Source: a virus. From it: DNA of 41,305 nt. Made by a program: the position numbers and the translations under genes. The notes beneath the pieces are model-generated. The model saw only the letters and a program-made list of their open reading frames with translations. It was not told where the DNA came from and ran no database searches. The stretch is from the IMG/VR virus record IMGVR_UViG_3300031507_000019, positions 1 through 41,305 of that record, one strand, 5' to 3'. Of the stretch, positions 2,533 through 41,305 are shown in pieces; position 1 is the first letter of the stretch; every line of letters starts with the position of its first letter.

Positions 2533-2750
2533 CGCTCGCGCCCGTTCGCGAAGTTGTCGACGAGCTCGACGAGCAACTGCACACGACCGCGCAGCTTCCA
2601 CGTCTCCACGTTGTTCGCGTCGGCCACGCTCACGTTCGAGAGACGCACGGCGCTCTCCGACAGAAGCCGCGTCAGCCAGCGGAGCACACGGTCGCGCTTC
2701 ACGACGTGCGCCTCGGCGCGAACCTGCTCGACGGGTCGGCGGTCGCTCAT
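2529..2750 (-). CDS. Small hypothetical protein
   Basis: 73 residues, no family recognised. Bounded by ATGA overlaps with the methyltransferase stop (2747-2750) and the next start (2529-2532). The sequence is mixed charged and hydrophobic, with a central helix (RDRVLRWLTRLLSESAVRL) and a C-terminal helix ending NFANGRER. It is expressed with the methyltransferase and integrase as part of the leftward operon. Confidence 0.65.
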   Translation of the reverse strand: MSDRRPVEQVRAEAHVVKRDRVLRWLTRLLSESAVRLSNVSVADANNVETWKLRGRVQLLVELVDNFANGRER

Positions 2751-4090
2751 GCGGCGGCCTGCTGCGCCCAGCGCTTCGCAATGTCGCGCACCACGCGGTG
2801 CGGGTTCACGTCGAACACGTCCTCGCGGTAGTGGATCGACGCCGGGTGATTCGCGGCGTGCATGACGATCGCGGCCTCGTCGTGGTTGATCGCCGCGTCG
2901 GGCGAGCGGCCGAGCGCCTCCTCGACGCCCGTGCTCGTGCCGCCGCCGCCCGCGAACATGTCGACGAAGCCCTCGCCGTCGTCTAGCTCCAGATTCGCCG
3001 CGACGAGCGCGGCTGAGAACGGCGGCGGTACTGCGTTGCCGGCGAGCTTCGTCTGCGCGGTCGTGCCGATGGGCTTGCCGGCAGCCTCGAGACCGTCGAT
3101 CACGTAGTCGTCGGGGAAGCCCTGCGCGGCGAACAGCTCGGGCGGGATGAGCATCCGCGACTCGATGTCGACGATGCGGTACACCTCGCCGTCGATCGTG
3201 ACGAGCCCAACGTCGTCGCCGCTCGCACCGTGCGCGCGCAGTAGCTCGGCGACCTCGCGCGAGCGGTCGGCATGCTCCGGGCCCGCGAGCATCCGGGCGA
3301 CCGTCAGCGCGTGATGGTCCTTCGCGGTGATGGTGCCGAGCGGGCGATCGACGCGGTGCCCGATGACGCCACCGTAGTGCTTCGTGATGATGGGGCAGAT
3401 CAGGTGCTTGTCGTTCGTCGCGCAGACGGTCGCGAGCGGGATGTCGAGCGGCTGCCCGCGGAACGTGCCGGCGCCGCACCCCTCACGGAGCCCGGCCCCG
3501 GTGATCGTCGAGTAGTGCCCGTGGCGCACGATGAACGGCGACGGGTTGCGCGCCTCGACGACGAACCGACGCACGCCGATCGCGATGCGTGCGAGCGTGG
3601 CCGGCGCCGGCGAGCGCTTGCGACCGAAGATCGACGCGCCGCGAACATCCCATCGGATGCACTCCGCAGCGGTGCGATGCGGCCGCGCGAGGCCCGGCCC
3701 GTGCGACGCGCGCGGCCACGTGATGCGAGCGCCGTCGCAACGAGCCGCGACGAACAGACGCTTGCGCGACGTGGGCGCGCCGTAGTCGGCAGCGATGAGC
3801 GTGCTCCATTCGAGCTCGTAGCCGTGCGAGCGGAGCACGGCGCACCACCACGCGAACGTCTCGCCCTTGCGCGACTCGATCGGCCGGTCGTGCTCGTCGA
3901 GCGGGCCCCAGTCTAAGAACTCGGGCACGTTCTCGCAGAAGAACATCCGCGGGCGCACTTCGCTCGCCCATCGGTGGGCGACACTGGCGAGCGCGCGGAT
4001 GTTCTTCGCGAGCGGCTTCGCGCCCTTCGCACGCGAAAACTGCGTGCAGTCGGGCGAGAGCCACGCGCCGCCGATGCGGACTGCGCTCAC
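2747..4090 (-). CDS. C5-cytosine DNA methyltransferase, circularly permuted
   Basis: 447 residues from a GTG that overlaps the upstream stop (GTGA). It transfers a methyl group from SAM to cytosine C5 in DNA, probably protecting phage DNA. Motif order is unusual. Catalytic motif IV is at the extreme N terminus (SPDCTQFS, residues 12-19, Cys15). It is followed by motif VI (ENV, 53-55), VIII (RKRLF, 109-113), a long target-recognition stretch, IX-like (PELFAAQGFPDDY, near 310) and X (KLAGNAVPPP, from 348). SAM-binding motif I (FAGGGG, 379-384) is last, followed by a motif II-like INHD. In the usual order motif I comes first, so the chain is permuted with its ends between motifs III and IV. All key residues are present. 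No cognate restriction enzyme is seen nearby. Confidence 0.85.
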   Translation of the reverse strand: MSAVRIGGAWLSPDCTQFSRAKGAKPLAKNIRALASVAHRWASEVRPRMFFCENVPEFLDWGPLDEHDRPIESRKGETFAWWCAVLRSHGYELEWSTLIAADYGAPTSRKRLFVAARCDGARITWPRASHGPGLARPHRTAAECIRWDVRGASIFGRKRSPAPATLARIAIGVRRFVVEARNPSPFIVRHGHYSTITGAGLREGCGAGTFRGQPLDIPLATVCATNDKHLICPIITKHYGGVIGHRVDRPLGTITAKDHHALTVARMLAGPEHADRSREVAELLRAHGASGDDVGLVTIDGEVYRIVDIESRMLIPPELFAAQGFPDDYVIDGLEAAGKPIGTTAQTKLAGNAVPPPFSAALVAANLELDDGEGFVDMFAGGGGTSTGVEEALGRSPDAAINHDEAAIVMHAANHPASIHYREDVFDVNPHRVVRDIAKRWAQQAAA

Positions 4091-5583
4091 GTCCGCACTT
4101 CGGGGCGGTAGCTCGACGCGTCGAGCCCGTACGTCCAGGCGTTGGCCTCGAGCGCGGTGCGCATCGTCGGCGGCACCGGGATCGCGAACTGCCGACCGGT
4201 GCCGCAGCGCACGCGCAGGAAGCGCTCGCGCGGCGAGTCGGGCAGGTCGACCTCGATCAGCTCGCCGATCATCGGGTCGCTGTCCTTGTCGATCTGGCGC
4301 GGCTTGAGCGACGCGAGCACCTTGTCCCAGCCGAGGATCTCGGCGAGCGCACGGCGCTGCTCGATCTGGCGGTGCGTCAGCGCGAGCGACGGATCGATCG
4401 TGTGCTTCCGCTCGATCCACTCACCAGGGATGACCTGGCCATGCCACGAGTAGAGCCCCCAGCCGTCCGCGAACTGGATCGCGGGCCCGTGCTCTGCGTG
4501 CAGACGGCCATTGCCGTCGCGATGCAGGACCGTCGGCCGCTCCGAGACGATGACGAACTCGCGATGCGGCCACCACCAGCATCCCTCGGTCGCGTCCTCG
4601 GCCGCTTGCGTCTCTGCGACGGCGAGCGAGAGGCCGCAGCAGTCGCGGTAGTACGTCGCCCACGCCGCCGGCCACGAGGGCCACAGACAGCCGCCGAGGC
4701 GGTTGTACCAGCCGCGCGAGAGAGTGTCGTAGAACGCTCGGCGAAGCTGCGAGGCGAGATCGCCGCCCACCGCGCCGTGCACCGCGTCGCGCACCGCGCC
4801 GTGCACCGCGTCGCGCACCGCGCCGTGCACCGCGCCGTGCACCGCGTCGCCCACCGCGTCGCGCACCGCGCCGCCCACCGCGCCGTCCACCGCGTCGCGC
4901 ACCGCGCCGTGCACCGCGCCGTCCACCGCGCCGCCCACCGCGTCGCGCACCGCGTCGCGCACCGCGTCGCGCACCGCGCCGTCCACCGCGCCGCGCACCG
5001 CGCCGTCCACCGCGTCGCGCACCGCGCCGTGCACCGCGCCGCCCACCGCGCCGTCCACCGCGCCGCGCACCGCGCCGTCCACCGCGTCGCGCACCGCGCC
5101 GTGCACCGCGCCGTGCACCGCGCCGCCCACCGCGCCGTCCACCGCGCCGCGCACCGCGCCGTCCACCGCGTCGCGCACCGCGCCGTGCACCGCGCCGCCC
5201 ACCGCGCCGTCCACCGCGCCGCCCACCGCGTCGCGCACCGCGTCGCGCACCGCGTCGCGCACCGCGTCGCGCACCGCGTCGCGCACCGCGCCGTCCACCG
5301 CGTCGCCCACCGCGTCGCGCACCGCGCCGATCTTCCGATTTCGCAGCTCGAGCGTGAGCGCAGCGATCGGACCGGCGATCGAAACGACGAGCGGGCTCGT
5401 CGTCCACACGATCCGCTTGGGCGGCGGCAGCTTCGCCGCGGCGTAGTAGCCGAGGATCCCGCGCTCCATCTTCGCGCGGTCGGCCTTGCGCACCTCGAGC
5501 GCGCGAGCGATCCACGCGCGTGCGTGGGTGTGCATCGCCGCCTCTTGAGCCTCGGTCAACTTCGTGAGCAGTAGCTTCCCCAT
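4087..5583 (-). CDS. DUF6745-like protein with tetrapeptide-repeat insert
   Basis: 498 residues. The C-terminal part (about 280-498) matches my memory of the DUF6745 family: RPTVLHRDGNGRLHAEHGPA, then DGWGLYSWHGQVIP, and a closing segment with VPPTMRTALEANAW. The family name is recalled and unverified, and its biochemical function is unknown to me. The N-terminal 85 residues (DRAKMERGILGYY, then WTTSPLV) also fit that family. Between them, residues 86-273 are 47 copies of a four-residue unit, [G/D]-A-V-[R/D/G/H]. The start has a good RBS (AAGGAGA) 10 nt upstream. The stop overlaps the methyltransferase GTG. The repeat length may be mis-assembled. Related proteins in actinobacteria carry similar AV-rich stretches, as far as I recall. 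Confidence 0.8.
   Translation of the reverse strand: MGKLLLTKLTEAQEAAMHTHARAWIARALEVRKADRAKMERGILGYYAAAKLPPPKRIVWTTSPLVVSIAGPIAALTLELRNRKIGAVRDAVGDAVDGAVRDAVRDAVRDAVRDAVRDAVGGAVDGAVGGAVHGAVRDAVDGAVRGAVDGAVGGAVHGAVHGAVRDAVDGAVRGAVDGAVGGAVHGAVRDAVDGAVRGAVDGAVRDAVRDAVRDAVGGAVDGAVHGAVRDAVDGAVGGAVRDAVGDAVHGAVHGAVRDAVHGAVRDAVHGAVGGDLASQLRRAFYDTLSRGWYNRLGGCLWPSWPAAWATYYRDCCGLSLAVAETQAAEDATEGCWWWPHREFVIVSERPTVLHRDGNGRLHAEHGPAIQFADGWGLYSWHGQVIPGEWIERKHTIDPSLALTHRQIEQRRALAEILGWDKVLASLKPRQIDKDSDPMIGELIEVDLPDSPRERFLRVRCGTGRQFAIPVPPTMRTALEANAWTYGLDASSYRPEVRT
4765..5328 (-). repeat. Coding minisatellite, 47 x 12 bp
   Basis: The 12-bp unit on the coding strand is GRC GCG GTG SRC, with no indels. The Ala and Val codons are invariant. 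Only three base positions vary, giving Gly or Asp at position 1 and Arg, Asp, Gly or His at position 4. A higher-order block of 6-7 units (G, H, R, D, R, D at position 4) appears three times in succession near units 11-29, a sign of segmental duplication by slippage or unequal crossover. The array is longer than a short read, so the copy number is uncertain. Confidence 0.95.
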
Positions 5584-6730: not shown

Positions 6731-7674
6731 CACGCAGCCTCCTTGTTGATCGTCAGAGCGAGTCGGTTCTCGACCGCGCGGAGGCGGCCCATGGCGTCGG
6801 TGCCGGCAACGGCCGCGGCGATGGCGGCGCGCACCTTCTCGTGCTTCTCGGCGGGCACGCTCGAGAGAGCGACCTCGATGCGCGCGAGGATGGTGTCGCG
6901 CGTCTCGATCGAGGAGCTCGCCTCGATCCACGCCTCATACGAGAGCGGCAACTCGGCCGGCGCATCGCTGCGCGTGCCCGCGACCCAGCCGGGCGCGCCC
7001 TGCGTGTGGATGACGCGCTCGCCGAGCGACGACACCTTCGCGCGCATGTTCTGCTTGTGGATGCCGATCTTCGTCGTCGCGAAGAGGATGTGGTCGGCCC
7101 AGCCGCGCAGCAGCGCGCTCGCCTTCTGGTTGAGGTTGAGGTCGTACCGCTGGTAGTCCTCGGTGTCGGGGCTCTTCACGTTCACAAGCGCCGCATGCGC
7201 GACGAGGATGATGTCCATGCCGCGCTGATCGCGCAGTGCGTCGAGCCGTCCGCACAGCTCGCTCCAGATGTCGAGCGCGAAGATGTAGCCCTTGTGAAAG
7301 CCGTAATCCTCGATCGAGGAGGCGCGCTTGTCGCCGTTGAGCTTCGTCGCACACGTCCGCTTCCACACGTGGCGCTCGAGCTCGTCGAGCGTGTCGACGA
7401 CGAGCGTCTTGTACGAGTGCTCGCCGGTCGTGAGCACGTCGAGCGCGTCGATCACGTCGCTCCACGAGAGCGCGCGCGGGAAGGACTCGACGTCGAGCCG
7501 GTTGGCGCCCTCCTCGAGGGGCAGCCAGATGGGCGCGAGCGCGTGCGATGCCCACGTGCTCTTGCCGATCTTCTCCTTGCCGTAGATGACGGTGCGCTGC
7601 GGCGCACGCCGCGGCCCCTTCGTGATCGCGCCGAGGCTCATCCTCGCGCGCGGGTTGGTTTTCTCTTCGCTCAT
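6730..7674 (-). CDS. Sak4-type RecA-like ATPase (AAA_24 family)
   Basis: 314 residues. Walker A is at 32-40 (GKEKIGKST) and Walker B ends at Asp94 (TLVVDTLDE). A following IILVAHAAL strand matches the sensor region of this phage ATPase family. Such proteins stimulate single-strand annealing together with a phage SSB. The start at 7674 is chosen because GAGAGGAGA lies just upstream; a longer frame starts inside the previous gene. It lies between the exonuclease and SSB genes, the usual order of a Sak4/SSB recombination cassette. Confidence 0.82.
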   Translation of the reverse strand: MSEEKTNPRARMSLGAITKGPRRAPQRTVIYGKEKIGKSTWASHALAPIWLPLEEGANRLDVESFPRALSWSDVIDALDVLTTGEHSYKTLVVDTLDELERHVWKRTCATKLNGDKRASSIEDYGFHKGYIFALDIWSELCGRLDALRDQRGMDIILVAHAALVNVKSPDTEDYQRYDLNLNQKASALLRGWADHILFATTKIGIHKQNMRAKVSSLGERVIHTQGAPGWVAGTRSDAPAELPLSYEAWIEASSSIETRDTILARIEVALSSVPAEKHEKVRAAIAAAVAGTDAMGRLRAVENRLALTINKEAA

Positions 7675-7687
7675 CTGCTGTCTCCTC

Positions 7688-8485
7688 TCAGCCGCGCGCC
7701 ACATGCGCGCGGGAAATCCACGGCTGGATCAGGTCCCAGCCCTTGCGCGCGATCGCGCGCGCCATCTCGACACCCTCGGCCGTCGACTCGTGCGGCAACG
7801 CGAGGATCGGACCGTCTTCGCGCGAGTCGTCGGCGTCGCGGTTCCAGCCGCAGCCCACGACGAGCAGGTGCCGCTCGCTGCGCATCACAGCGGCGTACGC
7901 ATCCAACTGCGTGCCGTAGTACCAGGGCGTTTCGGTCGCGCCGTTCCACCACGCCGGTTTCGCGAAGCCGTAGCGGGCGACTTTCGTGTCGAAAGTGACG
8001 AGCTTGCGTCGCCACGTGTGCGCCCAGCCGTCGGGGTGCACGACGAGCGGCGACTTCGGGTCCGCGTGCTCGACCCACTCCCATGGAAGCGCGCCGGCCC
8101 ACTGGATCGTGGACGGGTCGATCTCGCGCTCGAGCTCGCACGTCCACTCGCCGCGCTCGAGGCGCTCGATCCACGCGGCGAGCAGCTCGGGCTCGCGACG
8201 CGTGCCGGTGTCGAGCGTCGCGCCACGATCCTGCGCGGCAAGGCCGAGCAGCTGCGCGAGCCCGCGCGGCAGGCCGCCATGACGCGGCATCGGCCGCGCC
8301 TTCTCGCGAATCCAGCGCGGAGCCTCTTCGGGCGCGCGGTGGCCGAACGCGACCGCGAGATACGCGATCGCCGAACCGCCGATGCCAAGCGGCGGCTCTT
8401 TGCGCTCGCGCGTCGGCAGGTCGGTGCTGAACACCGCGGCGTCGAGCTCGTCGCGCGCTTCGCGCGCTTCGCGCGCTTCGCTCAC
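7688..8485 (-). CDS. YqaJ-like PD-(D/E)XK exonuclease
   Basis: 265 residues from a GTG overlapping the previous stop (GTGA). The pattern fits lambda-exonuclease/YqaJ nucleases: an IGGSAIAYLA segment (35-44), a conserved acidic residue near 98-100, Asp152 (HPDGWAH), the D-x-K at 166-168 (TFDTK) and a Tyr-Gln pair (YYGTQLDAY, 189-197). Overall similarity is weak, so this is a motif-based call. Role: resect double-stranded ends to feed the adjacent Sak4/SSB annealing system. The N terminus has a tandem Glu-Ala-Arg stretch encoded by a short direct repeat (GAAGCGCGC) at about 8458-8481. Confidence 0.62.
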   Translation of the reverse strand: MSEAREAREARDELDAAVFSTDLPTRERKEPPLGIGGSAIAYLAVAFGHRAPEEAPRWIREKARPMPRHGGLPRGLAQLLGLAAQDRGATLDTGTRREPELLAAWIERLERGEWTCELEREIDPSTIQWAGALPWEWVEHADPKSPLVVHPDGWAHTWRRKLVTFDTKVARYGFAKPAWWNGATETPWYYGTQLDAYAAVMRSERHLLVVGCGWNRDADDSREDGPILALPHESTAEGVEMARAIARKGWDLIQPWISRAHVARG

Positions 8486-11618: not shown

Positions 11619-13033
11619 CCGCGCAGAGCTACGAGCAATTCATCGCGCAGAAGAGCGCGACCACGCGCTTCGACGGCATCGACGTGGCGCCGGGCGAGCT
11701 GCACGCGGCGCTCAAGCCGCACCAGCGCGACATCACGCGATGGGCGCTGCGCAAGGGCCGCGCGGCCGTGTTCGCCGACACGGGCCTCGGCAAGAGCTTC
11801 TCGCAGCTCGAGTGGGCGCGCGTGGTCTCGCAGCGCGGGCGCGTGCTCATCGCAGCGCCGCTCGGCGTGGCGCAGCAGACGGTGCGCGAGGGCGAGCGCT
11901 GGGGCATCGCGTGCTCGTATCTGCGTGAGGACGACGAGAGCGTGCGCATCGTCGTGACGAACTACGAGATGCTGCACCGCTTCGATCCGTCGCGCTTCAT
12001 CGGCGTGGCGCTCGACGAGTCGAGCATCCTCAAGAACCACACGGGCGCGACGCGCAACGCGCTCGTCGCCTCGTTCGCGCAGACGCCATACCGCACGTGC
12101 TGGACCGCGACGCCGGCACCGAACGATCACACCGAGCTCGGCAATCACTCCGAGTTCCTCGGCATCAAGACGCGCGCGGAGATGCTCGCGGAGTTCTTCG
12201 TGCACGACGGCGGCAGCACGCAGGACTGGCGCGTGAAGGGCCATGCGATCACGGCGTTCTGGCGATGGGTCGCGTCGTGGGGCGCGGTCGTGCGGCTGCC
12301 GTCCGACCTCGGGCACGAGGACGAAGGCTATCGCCTTCCGCCGCTGCGGATGCACACGCACATCATCGCGACCGACGACGGGCCCGTGCCCGCGGTCAAG
12401 CCGGGCGCGACGGGGCTGCTCTTCGCCGACGACGCCGCGACGCTCAACGAGCAGCGCGCACTTCGTCGCGTGACGCTCGCGCAGCGGGTCGATGCCGCGG
12501 TGTCGATCGTCGACCGCGACCCGAAGGCGCCCGCGCTCGTGTGGTGCGAGCTCAACGACGAGCAGGACGCGCTCGAGGAAGCGTTCGGCGATCGCGCGTG
12601 GAGCATCCGCGGCGCCGACACGCTCGACCAGAAAGAGCAGCGCATCAGTGCGTGGCTCGCGGGCCGGCGCGCCGTGATGATCGGCAAGCCGTCCATGCTG
12701 GGGATGGGGCTGAACTTCCAGCACTGCGCGCGGCAGGTGTTCGTCGGCGCGTCGCACAGCTACGAGCAGACGTACCAGGCGATCCGCCGCTGCTGGCGCT
12801 TCGGTCAGGCGCGTCCCGTGGACGTGCACGTCATCAGCGCCGACAAGGAGCGCCTCGTCGTCGAGAACTACCGCCGCAAAGAGGCAGACGCCGCGCGCAT
12901 GGCTGCCGAGATGGCCGCGCAGGTCGGCGAGAGCGTGCGTGCCGAGGTCTGCGGCGCGTCGGGGCGTGAGTGGAATCCGTACGAAGCCGGTCAGCCGATC
13001 GTGGTGCCGGCGTGGATAGAGGAGGCAGCATGA
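11615..13033 (+). CDS. SNF2-type DEAD/DEAH helicase
   Basis: 472 residues, ATGA-coupled start. Motif I ADTGLGKS (54-61), motif Ia-like VLIAAPLGV, motif II DESS (134-137, in place of DEAH), motif III TATPAPN (164-170). The second RecA domain includes IGKPSMLGMGLNFQ and motif VI RRCWRFGQ. The two domains and the DESS box resemble phage SNF2-like translocases. These are often encoded directly before an SPPF methyltransferase, as here. Role in replication, recombination or anti-restriction is not known. Confidence 0.85.
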   Translation: MTAQSYEQFIAQKSATTRFDGIDVAPGELHAALKPHQRDITRWALRKGRAAVFADTGLGKSFSQLEWARVVSQRGRVLIAAPLGVAQQTVREGERWGIACSYLREDDESVRIVVTNYEMLHRFDPSRFIGVALDESSILKNHTGATRNALVASFAQTPYRTCWTATPAPNDHTELGNHSEFLGIKTRAEMLAEFFVHDGGSTQDWRVKGHAITAFWRWVASWGAVVRLPSDLGHEDEGYRLPPLRMHTHIIATDDGPVPAVKPGATGLLFADDAATLNEQRALRRVTLAQRVDAAVSIVDRDPKAPALVWCELNDEQDALEEAFGDRAWSIRGADTLDQKEQRISAWLAGRRAVMIGKPSMLGMGLNFQHCARQVFVGASHSYEQTYQAIRRCWRFGQARPVDVHVISADKERLVVENYRRKEADAARMAAEMAAQVGESVRAEVCGASGREWNPYEAGQPIVVPAWIEEAA

Positions 13034-14022
13034 AGGTGATCGAACAGGTCGTGACCGACAGGTACGCCGCGTACCACGCGGACGTGATGGATGTGGTGCG
13101 CGGGTTGCCCGACAACTCGATGCACTACTCGATCAGCTCGCCGCCCTTCGCGAGCCTCTATACCTACTCGTCGTCGCCGCGCGACATGGGCAACGTCGCG
13201 TCGCACGAGGAGTTCTTCGCCTCGTTCCGGTTCCTCGTGCCGGAGCTGCTGCGCATCATCAAGCCGGGTCGGCTCTGCACGATGCACTGCATGAACCTCC
13301 CCACGTCGAAGGCGCGTGACGGCTTCATCGGCCTGTCCGACTTCCGCGGCGAGATCATCCGCGCGTTCGTCGAGTGCGGATGGATCTTCCACTCCGAAGT
13401 CGTGGTGTGGACCGACCCCGTCACCGCGATGCAGCGCACGAAGGCGCTGGGGCTGCTGCACAAGCAGATCAAGAAAGACTCGTCGATGTCGCGGCAGGGG
13501 ATCCCCGACACGCTCGTCACGTTCCGCAAGCCGGGCGCGAACGAAGAGCCGGTCACGCACAGCGGCGAGGGCGACGACATGCCCGTGCAGCTCTGGCAGC
13601 GTTACGCCTCGCCCGTGTGGGTGACGACGCGCGGCGTCGACCCCGAGGGCTTCGCCATCTGCGTGGGCGACTCGCAGCCCGGCAACGACACGAGCACTGT
13701 CGACCGCGGCGACACGCTGCAGCACCGCAGCGCGCGCGAGGAGGCAGACGAGCGCCACATCTGCCCGTTGCAGCTCGAGGTGTACCGGCGCTGCATCAAG
13801 CTCTGGACGAACCCGGGCGACGGCGTGTTCGAGCCGTTCGGCGGGATCGGCAGCGGCGGCGTGGTCTCGCTCGAAATGGGACGCAAGTACGCCGCGGCCG
13901 AGCTCAAGCGCTCGTACTACCAGCAGATGGTCCGCAATCTCGCGGCGACCGTCGAGCCGATCAAGCAGCAGGACATGTTCGGCGCGCTTGCGGCCCCGTC
14001 CGCCGAATCGAGCGCGGCGTGA
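13030..14022 (+). CDS. DNA methyltransferase, SPPF motif (N4-cytosine/N6-adenine class)
   Basis: 330 residues. The ATG overlaps the helicase stop and is preceded by GAGGAGG. Motif IV SPPF is at 37-40 and the SAM-binding FxGxG (EPFGGIGSGG) near 267-278, so the order IV...I marks a beta-class amino-methyltransferase. SPPF is more typical of N4-cytosine enzymes, but the base cannot be fixed from sequence. The middle contains DFRGEIIRAFVECGW and a target-recognition-like section. It forms an operon pair with the helicase, and may protect phage DNA with the C5 enzyme of the other operon. Confidence 0.88.
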   Translation: MKVIEQVVTDRYAAYHADVMDVVRGLPDNSMHYSISSPPFASLYTYSSSPRDMGNVASHEEFFASFRFLVPELLRIIKPGRLCTMHCMNLPTSKARDGFIGLSDFRGEIIRAFVECGWIFHSEVVVWTDPVTAMQRTKALGLLHKQIKKDSSMSRQGIPDTLVTFRKPGANEEPVTHSGEGDDMPVQLWQRYASPVWVTTRGVDPEGFAICVGDSQPGNDTSTVDRGDTLQHRSAREEADERHICPLQLEVYRRCIKLWTNPGDGVFEPFGGIGSGGVVSLEMGRKYAAAELKRSYYQQMVRNLAATVEPIKQQDMFGALAAPSAESSAA

Positions 14023-14306: not shown

Positions 14307-14488
14307 CGCCCGCGGACGAGCTGTTCGCAGGGCGTGCGCTCATCGCAGCGGCGCGAGACGCGGCTGTCTCCGACGTTGTCACCGACGACGAGGAAGAGGG
14401 CGTGGATGGGCGAGACGCGCACGTCGCCTACGACGTGTTCGCGCGCGAGCTGGACCTCGCCGGCTTCGCGATCGTGAGGAAGCCGTGA
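14303..14488 (+). CDS. Very small acidic protein
   Basis: 61 residues, ATGA/GTGA-coupled at both ends. Contains an acidic run (VTDDEEEGVDGRD) between two helices. Net negative; could be a DNA-mimic or partner protein, but nothing specific can be claimed. Confidence 0.55.
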   Translation: MTPADELFAGRALIAAARDAAVSDVVTDDEEEGVDGRDAHVAYDVFARELDLAGFAIVRKP

Positions 14489-14730
14489 CGCCGGGCGAGC
14501 GCATCTTCAACGCTCGGCAGGCGCGCGGTCTCTCACTCCGCGAAGCGGTCGAGCGCGTCGGCGTCTCGCACGTGTTCTGGCGTGAGGTCGAGCGCGGCGA
14601 GAAGCGGCCGAGCCCCGAGAAGGCCCGGCTCTTCGCCCGCGCGGTCGGCCTCGATGCGCGCGAGTTGCTGCGCGCATTTGGCGCCGACGAGGCCGCCAAG
14701 GCCATGGCCCGATGGGAGGCCGCGCTGTGA
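14485..14730 (+). CDS. Xre-family HTH protein
   Basis: 81 residues from GTG (GTGA overlap). An Xre-type HTH covers nearly all of it: IFNARQARGLSLREAVERV, then HVFWREVERGEKRPSPEKARLFARAVGL. Likely a DNA-binding regulator of the rightward or late genes. No added domain. Confidence 0.75.
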   Translation: MTPGERIFNARQARGLSLREAVERVGVSHVFWREVERGEKRPSPEKARLFARAVGLDARELLRAFGADEAAKAMARWEAAL

Positions 14731-15388: not shown

Positions 15389-15486
15389 CGCGCGATCTCG
15401 CTATCCGTTTCGCAGACAGCTACCGACGGCGCCGTCAGCCGTGGATGGCCGAGATCTGGGAGACGTGGGCGCGGAGGCTTCCATGA
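15385..15486 (+). CDS. 33-residue microprotein
   Basis: A 34-codon frame with ATGA overlaps at both ends (15385-15388, 15483-15486), exactly as for the larger genes around it. Product is basic with Trp-rich end (RQPWMAEIWETWARRL). The double coupling is the reason to call it; function unknown. Confidence 0.55.
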   Translation: MTRDLAIRFADSYRRRRQPWMAEIWETWARRLP

Positions 15487-15641
15487 GCGAGCCCGTGCTC
15501 ACGGAGCGTGTCGCGACCGCGGCGCAGATGGTGCGGCAGCACGGCGTGAGCGCGTCTGCTGCGGCGGCGTGTCTGCGCGTGCCGGTCGCGGCGGTGCAGA
15601 TCGCGCTCGGACGCTGGACGAGCAAGCGAGGCCACGCGTGA
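15483..15641 (+). CDS. Small HTH-like protein
   Basis: 52 residues. ATGA overlap at the start; the stop shares one base with the helicase ATG (TGATG). The sequence VATAAQMVRQHGVSASAAAACLRVPVAAVQIALGRW reads as a compact HTH of homeodomain/resolvase type. Likely DNA binding, partner unknown. Confidence 0.6.
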   Translation: MSEPVLTERVATAAQMVRQHGVSASAAAACLRVPVAAVQIALGRWTSKRGHA

Positions 15642-17191
15642 TGTTCGACGCTGCGCCCACGCCCAAGCACTTCGATCCCGGCGCTGAGATCGCCGTGCTC
15701 GCGGGCGTCCTCCTCGACAACGCGCGCATGAACGACTGCGCGGCGCTCGCCGATGCCGACTTCTACGACCGCCGCAGCGGCGTCGTGTGGCGCGCGATGC
15801 AGCAGCTCGCCGTGGCCGGCGTCGCCGTCGACACGGTCACGCTCCGCTCGTTCCTCGTCGAGCGCAACGCGCTCGCTCGAGCGGGCGGCGACGAGCATCT
15901 GCTCGCGCTCACGGACATCGTGCCGAGCGCGCACAACATCGCCGAGCACGCCGCGATCGTGCGCCGCAACGCCGCCCGGCGACGTGCGGCCGCGCTCGCG
16001 AAGGCTGCGGCCGAGGCCGACGACATCGACGCCGCGCTGCGCGACCTCAGCGCGGCGCGCGAGACGCTCAACCAGGCGCAGGACGGCGGCATCGCCGATC
16101 AGTGGCTCACGCTCGGCGCGCGTGGACGCTGGCTCGAGGAGGCGCCCCCAGCCCGCGAGTGGCTGCTCAAGCGCGGCGAGCAGCCGGTGCTCGGCCGTGG
16201 CGACGTCGGGCTACTCGTCGCTCCGGGCGGACGCGGCAAGAGCTACGCGCTGTGTGACCTGGCGATCAGCATCGCGACGGGCACGCCCTGGCTCGGCGCG
16301 ATCGACGTGGCCTGCCCCGGCCGCGTCGTGCTCGCGCTCGCCGAGGAGACGACCGAGGAGACGCGCCGGCGCCTCTACGCGGTCGCGGTGGCGCGGCGGA
16401 TGACCGCGGAAGAGGTCGAGCTCGCCAACGAGCGCATCGTGCCCATGGGCCTGCGAGGGCGGCACGTGTCGCTCGCGCGCGTGGACGGCGCCAACGTGAC
16501 GGCGAGCGCAGTGCACAGCGAGCTCATGCGGCTGCTCGAGGCGCGGGAGTACGCGGCCGTTCTGCTCGATCCGATGTCGCGTTGGGCCGGCGGCCTCGAG
16601 AGCGACAACGATCTGGCCACGCGCGGCATCCAGCTCTTCGAGCAGCTCGCCGCGGCCTCGAGGGGCACCGTCATCGTCGCGCACCACACCGCGAAGTGGT
16701 CGCGGCGGGACGGCGCGGGCGGGCACGGCTCGAGCGCGCGCGGCGTCACGGCGATCACCGATGGTGCGCGGTGGCAGGCCGAGCTCCAGGGCGAGGGCGA
16801 GGACGATCTCACGTTCAAGGTGACGAAGAGCAACGGCGCGCCGCCGTGTGAGCCCGTGCGCCTCGTGCGCGAGAGCTCGGGCGCCATCCGCGCCATGACG
16901 CCCGCAGAGCTGGCGGCGGCCGACAAGGGCGAGCCGGCGACGCCCAGCGCGTCCCAGGACGCCCAGCGGCTCGTGTACGCGCTGCGGACGGCCGTCGAGC
17001 CGGTGATGACGCTCAAGGCGCTGCGCGAGCTCGGCGTCGGTCGGATGCAGCGCCGCAGCGCCGCGATCAAGCACGCTGTCACCGAGGAGTGGATTGCCAC
17101 GGACGCGCGTGGACAGTACTTCGTCACCGACAAGGCTCTTACCGCGGAGTCCGGACGTATCACGGATCCGAAGGAGGAGTGGGGTGGATAA
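15641..17191 (+). CDS. Replicative helicase: DnaB N-domain plus RecA/RepA-type ATPase
   Basis: 516 residues. The N-terminal 115 residues look like the DnaB N-terminal helical domain (EIAVLAGVLLDN, LADADFYDRRSGVVWRAM). The ATPase has Walker A PGGRGKS (195-201) and Walker B ending near Asp310 (AVLLDPMSRW), then IVAHHTAK, the RepA/AAA_25 sensor. The last 70 residues look like a winged helix. It probably loads or drives replication at the nearby iteron cluster. A GTG three bases upstream is an alternative start. No separate primase is seen in the window. Confidence 0.82.
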   Translation: MFDAAPTPKHFDPGAEIAVLAGVLLDNARMNDCAALADADFYDRRSGVVWRAMQQLAVAGVAVDTVTLRSFLVERNALARAGGDEHLLALTDIVPSAHNIAEHAAIVRRNAARRRAAALAKAAAEADDIDAALRDLSAARETLNQAQDGGIADQWLTLGARGRWLEEAPPAREWLLKRGEQPVLGRGDVGLLVAPGGRGKSYALCDLAISIATGTPWLGAIDVACPGRVVLALAEETTEETRRRLYAVAVARRMTAEEVELANERIVPMGLRGRHVSLARVDGANVTASAVHSELMRLLEAREYAAVLLDPMSRWAGGLESDNDLATRGIQLFEQLAAASRGTVIVAHHTAKWSRRDGAGGHGSSARGVTAITDGARWQAELQGEGEDDLTFKVTKSNGAPPCEPVRLVRESSGAIRAMTPAELAAADKGEPATPSASQDAQRLVYALRTAVEPVMTLKALRELGVGRMQRRSAAIKHAVTEEWIATDARGQYFVTDKALTAESGRITDPKEEWGG

Positions 17192-17522
17192 ACGTGTACC
17201 CGACCGGCGGGAACACGCCGGGAACACGGTACATGTACCCATGTACCCGGATGTACCCAGCGAGTCCGGTACACGCAAACCGCGTGTTCCGTTCCCTCCC
17301 TTTGCGGCCTTTGAGGCCGCAAGGGAAGGGTACACGCGGTATCCAGTCGAGGGACCACAAAACGTGTACCCGAACGATTCACGGGTACACGCTGGGAACA
17401 CGCAGCAGCTCCTCGGCGGTGGACGGACTCGGTATCACGCTCCGGCCTGGCCGTGGGCCGAGGTCGTCGATGCGGCTCGGCCGTGGGCACGCACGACCGT
17501 GTGGCTCGGAGGTGTAGTGTGA
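17184..17522 (+). CDS. Hypothetical protein spanning the iteron cluster
   Basis: 112 residues from a GTG that follows AAGGAGGAG by 4 nt and overlaps the helicase stop by 8 bp. Its stop overlaps the next GTG (GTGA), which supports this frame over the alternative one ending at 17517. The product repeats HAGNT twice and is rich in Tyr-Pro because the DNA repeats impose the sequence. No domain recognised. The stretch may be kept for its DNA sites as much as for the protein. Confidence 0.5.
   Translation: MDKRVPDRREHAGNTVHVPMYPDVPSESGTRKPRVPFPPFAAFEAAREGYTRYPVEGPQNVYPNDSRVHAGNTQQLLGGGRTRYHAPAWPWAEVVDAARPWARTTVWLGGVV
17193..17402. repeat. GGGWACACG iteron cluster, candidate replication origin
   Basis: Seven perfect copies of GGGWACACG in either orientation start at 17193, 17209, 17220, 17328, 17363, 17383 and 17394. 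Near copies are at 17267 and 17283. Three tandem ATGTACCC units lie at 17233-17258. The cluster spans 210 bp immediately after the replicative helicase gene, the usual place for a phage or plasmid iteron origin. A strong hairpin sits in the middle. Role as origin is inference. Confidence 0.6.
17297..17326. other. Hairpin inside the iteron cluster
   Basis: GCGGCC/GGCCGC with loop TTTGA, extended by TT/AA, a one-T bulge, then CCC/GGG and a T-A pair. It divides the iterons into two groups and could be a structural part of an origin. Confidence 0.5.
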
Positions 17523-18025
17523 GCACCCGGGCCGCAACGGGCCGCAAGCGTCGGCGCAGTGACGCTTTGTCACGCGAGGACGTGGTGCGTCTCGCGCTGC
17601 TGCGCATGTCGGCGGCCGAGATCGCGGCCGAGCTCGATGCTGCACCCGACACCGTCTCGTCGATCTTGCGCGAGCCTGCGGTCGTCGAGGCCATCGACGC
17701 GGCCGAGCGCACGGCGCTCGAGGATGCGCAGAAGGGCCTGCGCACGCTCACGCGAAAGGCGATGCGACGGCTCGCGCAGCTCGTCGACAGCAAGGATGAG
17801 CGCATCTCGCTCGCGGCGAGCACGGCCGTGCTCACGAAGGCCGGCGCCGACGCGCCCGCCAAGAGCGAAGCGAAGAACCAACTCACCGGCGCCGACGGTG
17901 CGCCGCTGATGCCATCGACGCCCATCTCGATGGCCGAACGCAAGGCGCGCGCTCTCGCAGAGCTTGCCGCGCTCGAGGAGACCGAGCGCGACCTCGAAGA
18001 GCTCACCGGAGGCAAGGCACCATGA
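17519..18025 (+). CDS. terS: Terminase small subunit-like protein
   Basis: 168 residues from GTG (GTGA overlap). A basic N terminus leads into an HTH (SREDVVRLALLRMSAAEIAAELDAAPDTVSSIL), followed by long helices (ALEDAQKGLRTLTRKAMRRLAQLVDS...AASTAVLTKAGA) typical of small terminases. The C terminus is acidic and coiled (LAALEETERDLEELTGG). Gene order, five genes before TerL, fits. Assignment rests on architecture and could be another HTH protein. Confidence 0.58.
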   Translation: MSTRAATGRKRRRSDALSREDVVRLALLRMSAAEIAAELDAAPDTVSSILREPAVVEAIDAAERTALEDAQKGLRTLTRKAMRRLAQLVDSKDERISLAASTAVLTKAGADAPAKSEAKNQLTGADGAPLMPSTPISMAERKARALAELAALEETERDLEELTGGKAP

Positions 18026-40833: not shown

Positions 40834-41305
40834 ATGAGCGACGCGACCATCGCGCAGCAGACCGGCATCCCGCTGCCGTTCGTCGCCGGCATCCGCGCCA
40901 CCGAGAGCGGCGGCAACAGCCACGCGCTGCGCTTCGAGCCGCACCTGTTCCGGCGCTACCACGCCGACTGCGTGCGCGTGCTGCATCCGACCGAGGGCGC
41001 TGCGTTCGTCACCGGCGACGAGGAGCGCCGCGAGGCGTGGGCGCGCGGCCTCGTGCCGTACACACCCGGCAAGGACCGCGCGGCGAGCTCCAGCGCGCTG
41101 GAGACCGGCCGCGAGGCGATGGAGCACGCGATGCGCATCGACGGCAATGCCGCGATCCGCTCGACGAGCTTCGGCAGCTTTCAGGTGCTGGGTGCGCACC
41201 TGCTGCCCTTCGGCGCCACGCCGGAGGCCGCGCTCGCGGTGTTCGACGCGGCGCCGCAGAGCGTCTCGGACGAGCTGCTCGTGCGCTGGCTGCGCGCGAA
41301 CACGC
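40834..41305 (+). CDS. Endolysin, N-acetylmuramidase family (N-terminal part)
   Basis: The gene starts at ATG 40834 and continues at base 1 after the end overlap, giving 201 residues. The N-terminal segment IRATESGGN has the likely catalytic Glu24, followed by RFEPHLFRRYHAD and AIRSTSFGSFQVLG, motifs of the N-acetylmuramidase (formerly DUF3380) family. Cleaves the MurNAc-GlcNAc bond of peptidoglycan for lysis. No signal peptide or SAR segment is visible, so release would need the holin. Confidence 0.85.
   Translation, partial: MSDATIAQQTGIPLPFVAGIRATESGGNSHALRFEPHLFRRYHADCVRVLHPTEGAAFVTGDEERREAWARGLVPYTPGKDRAASSSALETGREAMEHAMRIDGNAAIRSTSFGSFQVLGAHLLPFGATPEAALAVFDAAPQSVSDELLVRWLRANT
41179..41305. 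repeat. Terminal direct repeat, copy 2 (circular-assembly overlap)
   Basis: Exact copy of bases 1-127 at the end of the window. Collapsing it restores an unbroken endolysin frame and a circle of 41,178 bp. Confidence 0.9.

Follow-up and report, generated by a model that had tools for sequence, protein, structure and literature searches.

A cluster of short repeats directly after a replicative helicase gene very likely marks the replication origin of this phage (17183-17402), with the helicase encoded just upstream probably acting as its own initiator. The window, by which we mean the whole stretch of DNA analysed, is an IMG/VR virus record of 41,305 nt. Positions 1-127 recur exactly at 41179-41305, and since this direct terminal repeat is exactly 127 bases long and is simplest as an assembly overlap, the genome is most simply read as a circle of 41,178 bp. 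Replication genes run rightward from about 9.96 kb (a Cro-like HTH gene, an SNF2-like helicase, an HTH gene, RusA, a small HTH gene and the replicative helicase), with packaging genes downstream, among which terL is clear and terS, starting at 17519 after the array, is weakly identified (phrog_2538, E 1.3e-4); portal and capsid genes are apparent by eye from position and sequence. The left arm also carries a Sak4-like single-strand annealing protein (6733-7704, minus strand; phrog_124, E 3e-34), and we additionally observed a 498-aa open reading frame in which GAVRDAV/GAVDGAV/GAVHGAV repeats follow one another over a very long stretch (4087-5583, minus strand) and, by eye only, two apparent DNA methyltransferase genes (2747-4420, minus strand, and 12970-14022, plus strand). 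No Rfam families or tRNAs were found in the window, and a single-sequence collection scan returned no relatives of its large terminase. The features that bear on the origin are as follows:

14485-14727: small HTH protein of the replication module, a Cro/CI-type regulator
15441-15641: HTH protein of the replication module (HTH_23, sub-threshold)
15569-17191, plus strand: replicative helicase, proposed initiator (Pfam DnaB E 1e-18, AAA_25 E 7e-28)
16901-17188, plus strand: proposed winged-helix DNA-reading domain, helicase residues ~445-540 (low-confidence model and analogy)
17183-17191, minus strand: DnaA-box-like TTATCCACC, one mismatch to TTATCCACA, overlapping the helicase stop codon
17193-17201, minus strand: iteron GGGTACACG
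17209-17217, plus strand: iteron GGGAACACG
17220-17228, plus strand: iteron GGGAACACG
17228-17258: GGTACATG (plus strand), then three tandem GGGTACAT units (minus strand)
17233-17240, 17241-17248 and 17251-17258: positions of these three units, ATGTACCC
17267-17275, plus strand: near iteron CGGTACACG
17283-17291, minus strand: near iteron CGGAACACG, left of the hairpin
17302-17322: central hairpin TTGCGGCC-TTTGA-GGCCGCAA with core CCTTTGAGG, 111-131 bp past the stop codon
17328-17336, plus strand: iteron GGGTACACG, right of the hairpin
17363-17371, minus strand: iteron GGGTACACG
17383-17391, plus strand: iteron GGGTACACG
17394-17402, plus strand: iteron GGGAACACG

A preliminary description of this DNA had reported seven exact GGGWACACG sites in both orientations, two near matches, three tandem units and a strong hairpin inside the cluster, and each of these is present as listed. 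The cluster does lie directly after the helicase gene, as had been stated: the stop codon occupies 17189-17191 and the array begins 1 bp downstream, with iterons in both orientations around the hairpin. Because a generic repeated 6-mer statistic carries no information in a window of 70% GC, we used motif-specific shuffles. The motif GGGWACAYG occurs 10 times in the genome, 9 of them in the 210-bp array and only 1 elsewhere, so the motif is far from equally frequent outside the cluster; in 200 dinucleotide shuffles it averaged 0.49 occurrences per genome and never exceeded one per 210 bp, which bears out the claim that the cluster is beyond chance. For the looser GGWACAY the array holds 13 sites, and no 210-bp span contains more than 12 of them; the shuffles reach at most 2 per span. 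As single-stranded DNA, 17185-17410 has a folding z of -8.8, due largely to pairing between iterons and their inverted copies. No AT-rich stretch or melting zone was seen in 17193-17402, where two iteron sets instead flank a GC-rich hairpin. GC skew, which the preliminary description had put forward as a check, proved uninformative and gives no pointer to the array: genome-wide, its minimum falls at 8.5 kb (raw) or 11.5 kb (detrended), near the switch in gene direction at about 9.9 kb. A gene proposed to overlap the array (open reading frames 17089-17517 and 17094-17522) found no support, and the gap from the helicase to the putative terS is best read as intergenic.

Residues 37-132 of the window helicase form a DnaB-like N-terminal domain and residues 187-376 a RepA/RecA-type ring ATPase; DnaB and AAA_25 are its only Pfam domains, and its sequence matches in the PDB are the DnaB N-terminal domain and RSF1010 RepA (1g8y, E 6e-12). 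We propose that its C-terminal ~95 residues form a winged-helix iteron reader, because other array-bearing helicases model with a winged helix; a low-confidence model gives this region the order H-H-H-E-E. AlphaFold2 of the whole protein was too poor for use (pLDDT 42), hhalign found no sequence homology between the C-terminus and the winged helices tested, and an alignment of mixed helicases yielded no searchable block. Single-sequence scans of viral and genome collections found no close relatives of this helicase; given this, and a C-terminus that matches none of the winged helices tested, we infer from the common motif, position and layout that it reads its own array.

Next, we searched IMG/VR for three copies of TGTACCC separated by short gaps, using the same pattern reversed as control and taking loci as samples. 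Among the matches listed, mixed-orientation clusters were found in 26 of 119 loci, as against 0 of 120 for the reversed control, 112 of whose 120 listed matches were three-periodic coding repeats. Two scans gave at least 38 loci with a mixed array, meaning four or more GGGWACA within 350 bp with both orientations represented. For 18 of the 38 loci listed, from roughly 12 lineages, a helicase/primase reading frame has the array at its 3' end, mostly 3-41 bp from the stop codon; this count includes one locus added by hand (L151), whose gene is truncated at the end of its contig. A Pfam scan of array-adjoining helicases, which left out close relatives of scanned proteins, identified most of them as AAA_25 with Toprim_3, Prim-Pol or PriCT_2, VapE with Prim-Pol, PriCT_2 or NrS-1 HBD, and DUF927 with the Cch HTH_56 domain; L041 has no Pfam match and is helicase-like by eye only. 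The remaining 20 of the 38 listed loci have no recognised helicase beside the array, which we count against the origin reading. A literature search on GGGTACA repeats in phages gave nothing relevant.

We also observed same-motif arrays in other settings, five of them (L102, L087, L023, L189 and L227) belonging to these 20 loci. In three loci (L102 4495-4881, L087 4876-5197 and L023 1559-1903) GGGTACA arrays lie upstream of terS-terL with replication genes not adjacent; these may be origins placed elsewhere, or the motif may be used otherwise. Dense mixed-orientation GGGTACA arrays lie by integrase genes rather than helicases in L189 (3000-3470) and L227 (1600-1960), and one array (L172 4249-4598) lies within a DnaD-like initiator gene (PF07261), similar to the lambda iterons inside O.

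A profile search with Toprim/AAA_25 helicases, which picks loci by their protein irrespective of the motif, gave at least 80 loci, or 38 after removal of near-duplicates. At the stop codon, 20 of these 38 listed helicases have a repeat present five or more times, compared with 73 of 1312 background windows; the other 18 lack one, which we likewise count against the origin reading. The Toprim/AAA_25 helicases of L402, L404, L410, L414, L415, L423, L429-L432, L443 and L446, which have no clear iteron array past the stop, have a different C-terminus, often '..NGLKNK..YTKDSLRAQIPAD..'; the origin in these phages has to lie at some other place or be of a different kind. Where arrays are present, the repeat word varies by phage and includes GGGTACA, CGGTACA, GGGTCA, GGTAAC, GGGAAC, CGGAAC, CCGTAC, GGACAA and GGGGGC.

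Across 25 representatives (22 from the protein search, together with some motif-found loci), iteron similarity was associated with C-terminal identity when the core was controlled (partial r 0.367, Mantel p <= 2e-4), but not with core identity when the C-terminus was controlled (-0.04). Pairs whose cores are 80-93% identical and whose C-termini are 40-60% identical had almost no common repeat words (mean cosine 0.07, n = 14), and VapE helicases with near-identical cores differ in both their C-terminal residues and their arrays. Among helicases sampled by protein, the iteron word tracks the C-terminal winged helix; it follows neither the ATPase core nor the gene further along.

The last 110 residues of the L399 helicase, modelled with 28 related sequences at a pLDDT of 88.8, show the order H-E-H-H-H-E-E-H, a winged-helix arrangement in the model, and Foldseek matched the domain mostly to winged-helix regulators (CRP/CprK, GntR, CadC) with weak E-values. 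Columns that separate iteron classes peak over residues 59-74, in the region of helix 60-66, with a mean difference of 0.515 compared with 0.10-0.23 elsewhere. Counts of such columns partly reflect shared ancestry; stronger evidence comes from where the peak falls and from the minimal pairs. In one such pair, L399 and L445, the last 110 residues differ at five positions (A11V and R13K in the linker; Q65V, S71A and P72T), one of them on the recognition helix, and the iterons are GGTAAC and GGGAAC, respectively.

These data bear on who reads the array. The preliminary description had noted that such iterons commonly bind a replication initiator and had named the helicase or small HTH proteins as candidates to test; the C-terminal domain of the helicase itself now appears the likelier binder. 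An origin read by a separate phage initiator, namely the HTH protein at 15441-15641 or that at 14485-14727, would fit the presence of both small HTH proteins in the replication module and the precedent of IncQ plasmids, which pair a RepA-type helicase with a separate iteron binder, RepC. We nevertheless consider it unlikely, given that the iteron word follows the helicase C-terminus in other array-bearing phages, that three C-terminal and two linker substitutions separate a GGTAAC from a GGGAAC phage, and that the candidates amount to a sub-threshold HTH_23 match and a Cro/CI-type regulator.

In a second pair, L408 and L424, identity is 57.8% in the last 110 helicase residues, against 99.5% for the remainder of that protein and 99.6% for the ParB-like next gene, and the iterons are GGTAAC and GGGGGC, respectively. 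The divergent DNA block (~5780-6255 of L408) consists of the C-terminal domain plus the array, and is a recombination block that exchanged exactly these two elements between otherwise near-identical phages. Such pairs also speak to a different reading, in which the array would be a packaging (pac/cos) site for the small terminase encoded right downstream. That the next gene in the window is a putative terS is in its favour, as are the three GGGTACA arrays that precede terS-terL with no adjoining helicase. It becomes very unlikely when set against the ParB-like next genes of L408 and L424 and the terS-like next genes of L399 and L445 (90% identical), which stay nearly constant while the iterons differ, against the arrays adjoining helicases in L152, L170, L176 and L041, where terS is not next, and against the co-location of DnaA boxes with arrays. 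Among array-bearing phages other than the window's family, we found no co-variation of the sites with the small terminase of the kind that marks a pac or cosB site.

Two further hallmarks of origins accompany the array-bearing helicases. Exact DnaA boxes (TTATCCACA) were counted in 41 de-duplicated loci: the 15 kb surrounding the stop codons contain 38 and the other 297 kb contain 9, an enrichment of ~80-fold near array-bearing helicase stops. Of 25 array-bearing loci, 22 have a hairpin with a CT..AG core 71-186 bp past the stop, where 0.007 per 250 bp would be expected. The window hairpin, with its CCTTTGAGG core, falls at the same distance, and both this likeness and the window's one-mismatch DnaA box were spotted only after the family pattern was known. 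The candidate origin put forward in the preliminary description is therefore supported by same-motif arrays past helicase stops, by DnaA boxes and by a stereotyped hairpin in related loci, and we infer origin activity for 17183-17402. The same hairpin could instead be the terminator in an operator/promoter region for the late (packaging) genes, since the array occupies the gap between early and late modules and repeated sites in both orientations can act as operators. This seems extremely unlikely: simple scans of 17100-17620 found neither a sigma-70-like promoter nor a terminator-like site, the hairpin has no T tract, and iterons follow the helicase C-terminus in other phages.

Under the favoured reading of a self-initiating helicase and its origin, the C-terminal domain of the window helicase would bind the GGGWACAYG iterons that begin at its own stop codon, and the iteron-bound helicase would assemble rings on either side of the central hairpin, perhaps with host DnaA at the adjoining DnaA-like box assisting in loading. 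The DNA would open at the hairpin, and the DnaB-like N-terminal domain might then recruit host primase; in helicases with Toprim or Prim-Pol, that module would do the priming.

More broadly, a portable 'reader plus origin' cassette is probably common in phages, in which a variable C-terminal winged helix is carried on unrelated ring helicases, iterons run from the stop codon, the two are exchanged as a unit and the recognition helix diversifies quickly. The ring helicases involved would, with the same fair likelihood, include RecA-fold AAA_25, SF3 VapE and DUF927, and the N-terminal module would plausibly supply or recruit primase (Toprim, Prim-Pol, PriCT or DnaB-N). Rapid diversification of the recognition helix would probably account for the many origin specificities, such as GGGTACA, GGGTCA, GGTAAC, GGGAAC, CCGTAC, GGACAA, GGGGGC, GATCAC and others. 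As many unrelated phages show this arrangement, with a repeat word that differs from one to the next, phage origins become easy to predict, and inspecting the helicase stop codon offers a rule for origin finding in many uncultured temperate phages. The near-minimal pairs (Q65V plus two neighbouring substitutions, GGTAAC vs. GGGAAC) additionally provide a natural protein-DNA recognition data set, and the exchange unit of C-terminal domain and origin a handle on why phages diversify origin specificity.

Among known systems, the window array resembles a general iteron origin in that its repeats are clustered beyond chance, with one GGGWACAYG site outside the array. It does not match a lambda-type origin, in which iterons lie inside O with the DnaB loader P beside it: the window array follows the helicase gene, and the array-side genes examined are RusA, HTH, helicase and terS. 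The ATPase core of the window helicase is homologous to RepA of IncQ plasmid RSF1010 (PDB 1g8y, E 6e-12), which has no DnaB N-domain and leaves the binding of IncQ iterons to RepC. The alpha protein of phage P4, a primase-helicase-initiator that binds iterons by its C-terminal domain, is similar in this mode of reading and differs in being an SF3 helicase; the P4 origin sites (ori1/crr; iteron GGTGAACAG) are not simply at the stop codon.

The closest layouts are those of mobile islands. In SaPIs and PICIs (SaPIbov1, SaPI1, EcCICFT073) the origin, with iterons, lies directly 3' of the initiator-helicase gene (PMC7581432, PMC6092414), and the C-terminal domain of SaPI Rep reads iterons directly downstream of its own gene (PMC7581432). 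Similarly, SCCmec Cch2 has direct repeats, AAGTG iterons, downstream of its operon, and its isolated C-terminal domain binds them (PMC7581432), although that system combines a D5-type helicase with three iterons and a putative origin, unlike the RecA-fold helicase of the window. The PICI rep-ori layout has been said to occur in 'no other known bacterial replicon', in a paper that also mentions P4 alpha with its cognate ori (PMC6092414). The window array shares this layout, lying directly 3' of the helicase gene, 1 bp past its stop codon. In the islands, however, two iteron sets flank an AT-rich zone, whereas in the window a GC-rich hairpin lies between the iterons; SaPI/PICI Rep is of the DUF927 or Primase_Cterm/D5 type, whereas the window encodes a RecA-fold (RepA-type) helicase with a DnaB N-domain; and PICIs are satellites that use helper-phage virions, whereas the window is a phage genome with its own terminase. 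The window array would work like a SaPI/PICI rep-ori, yet by its helicase, its gene set and the lack of an AT-rich zone it is not a PICI, and a layout that had been described for phage-inducible islands alone thereby extends to complete phages and RecA-fold helicases.
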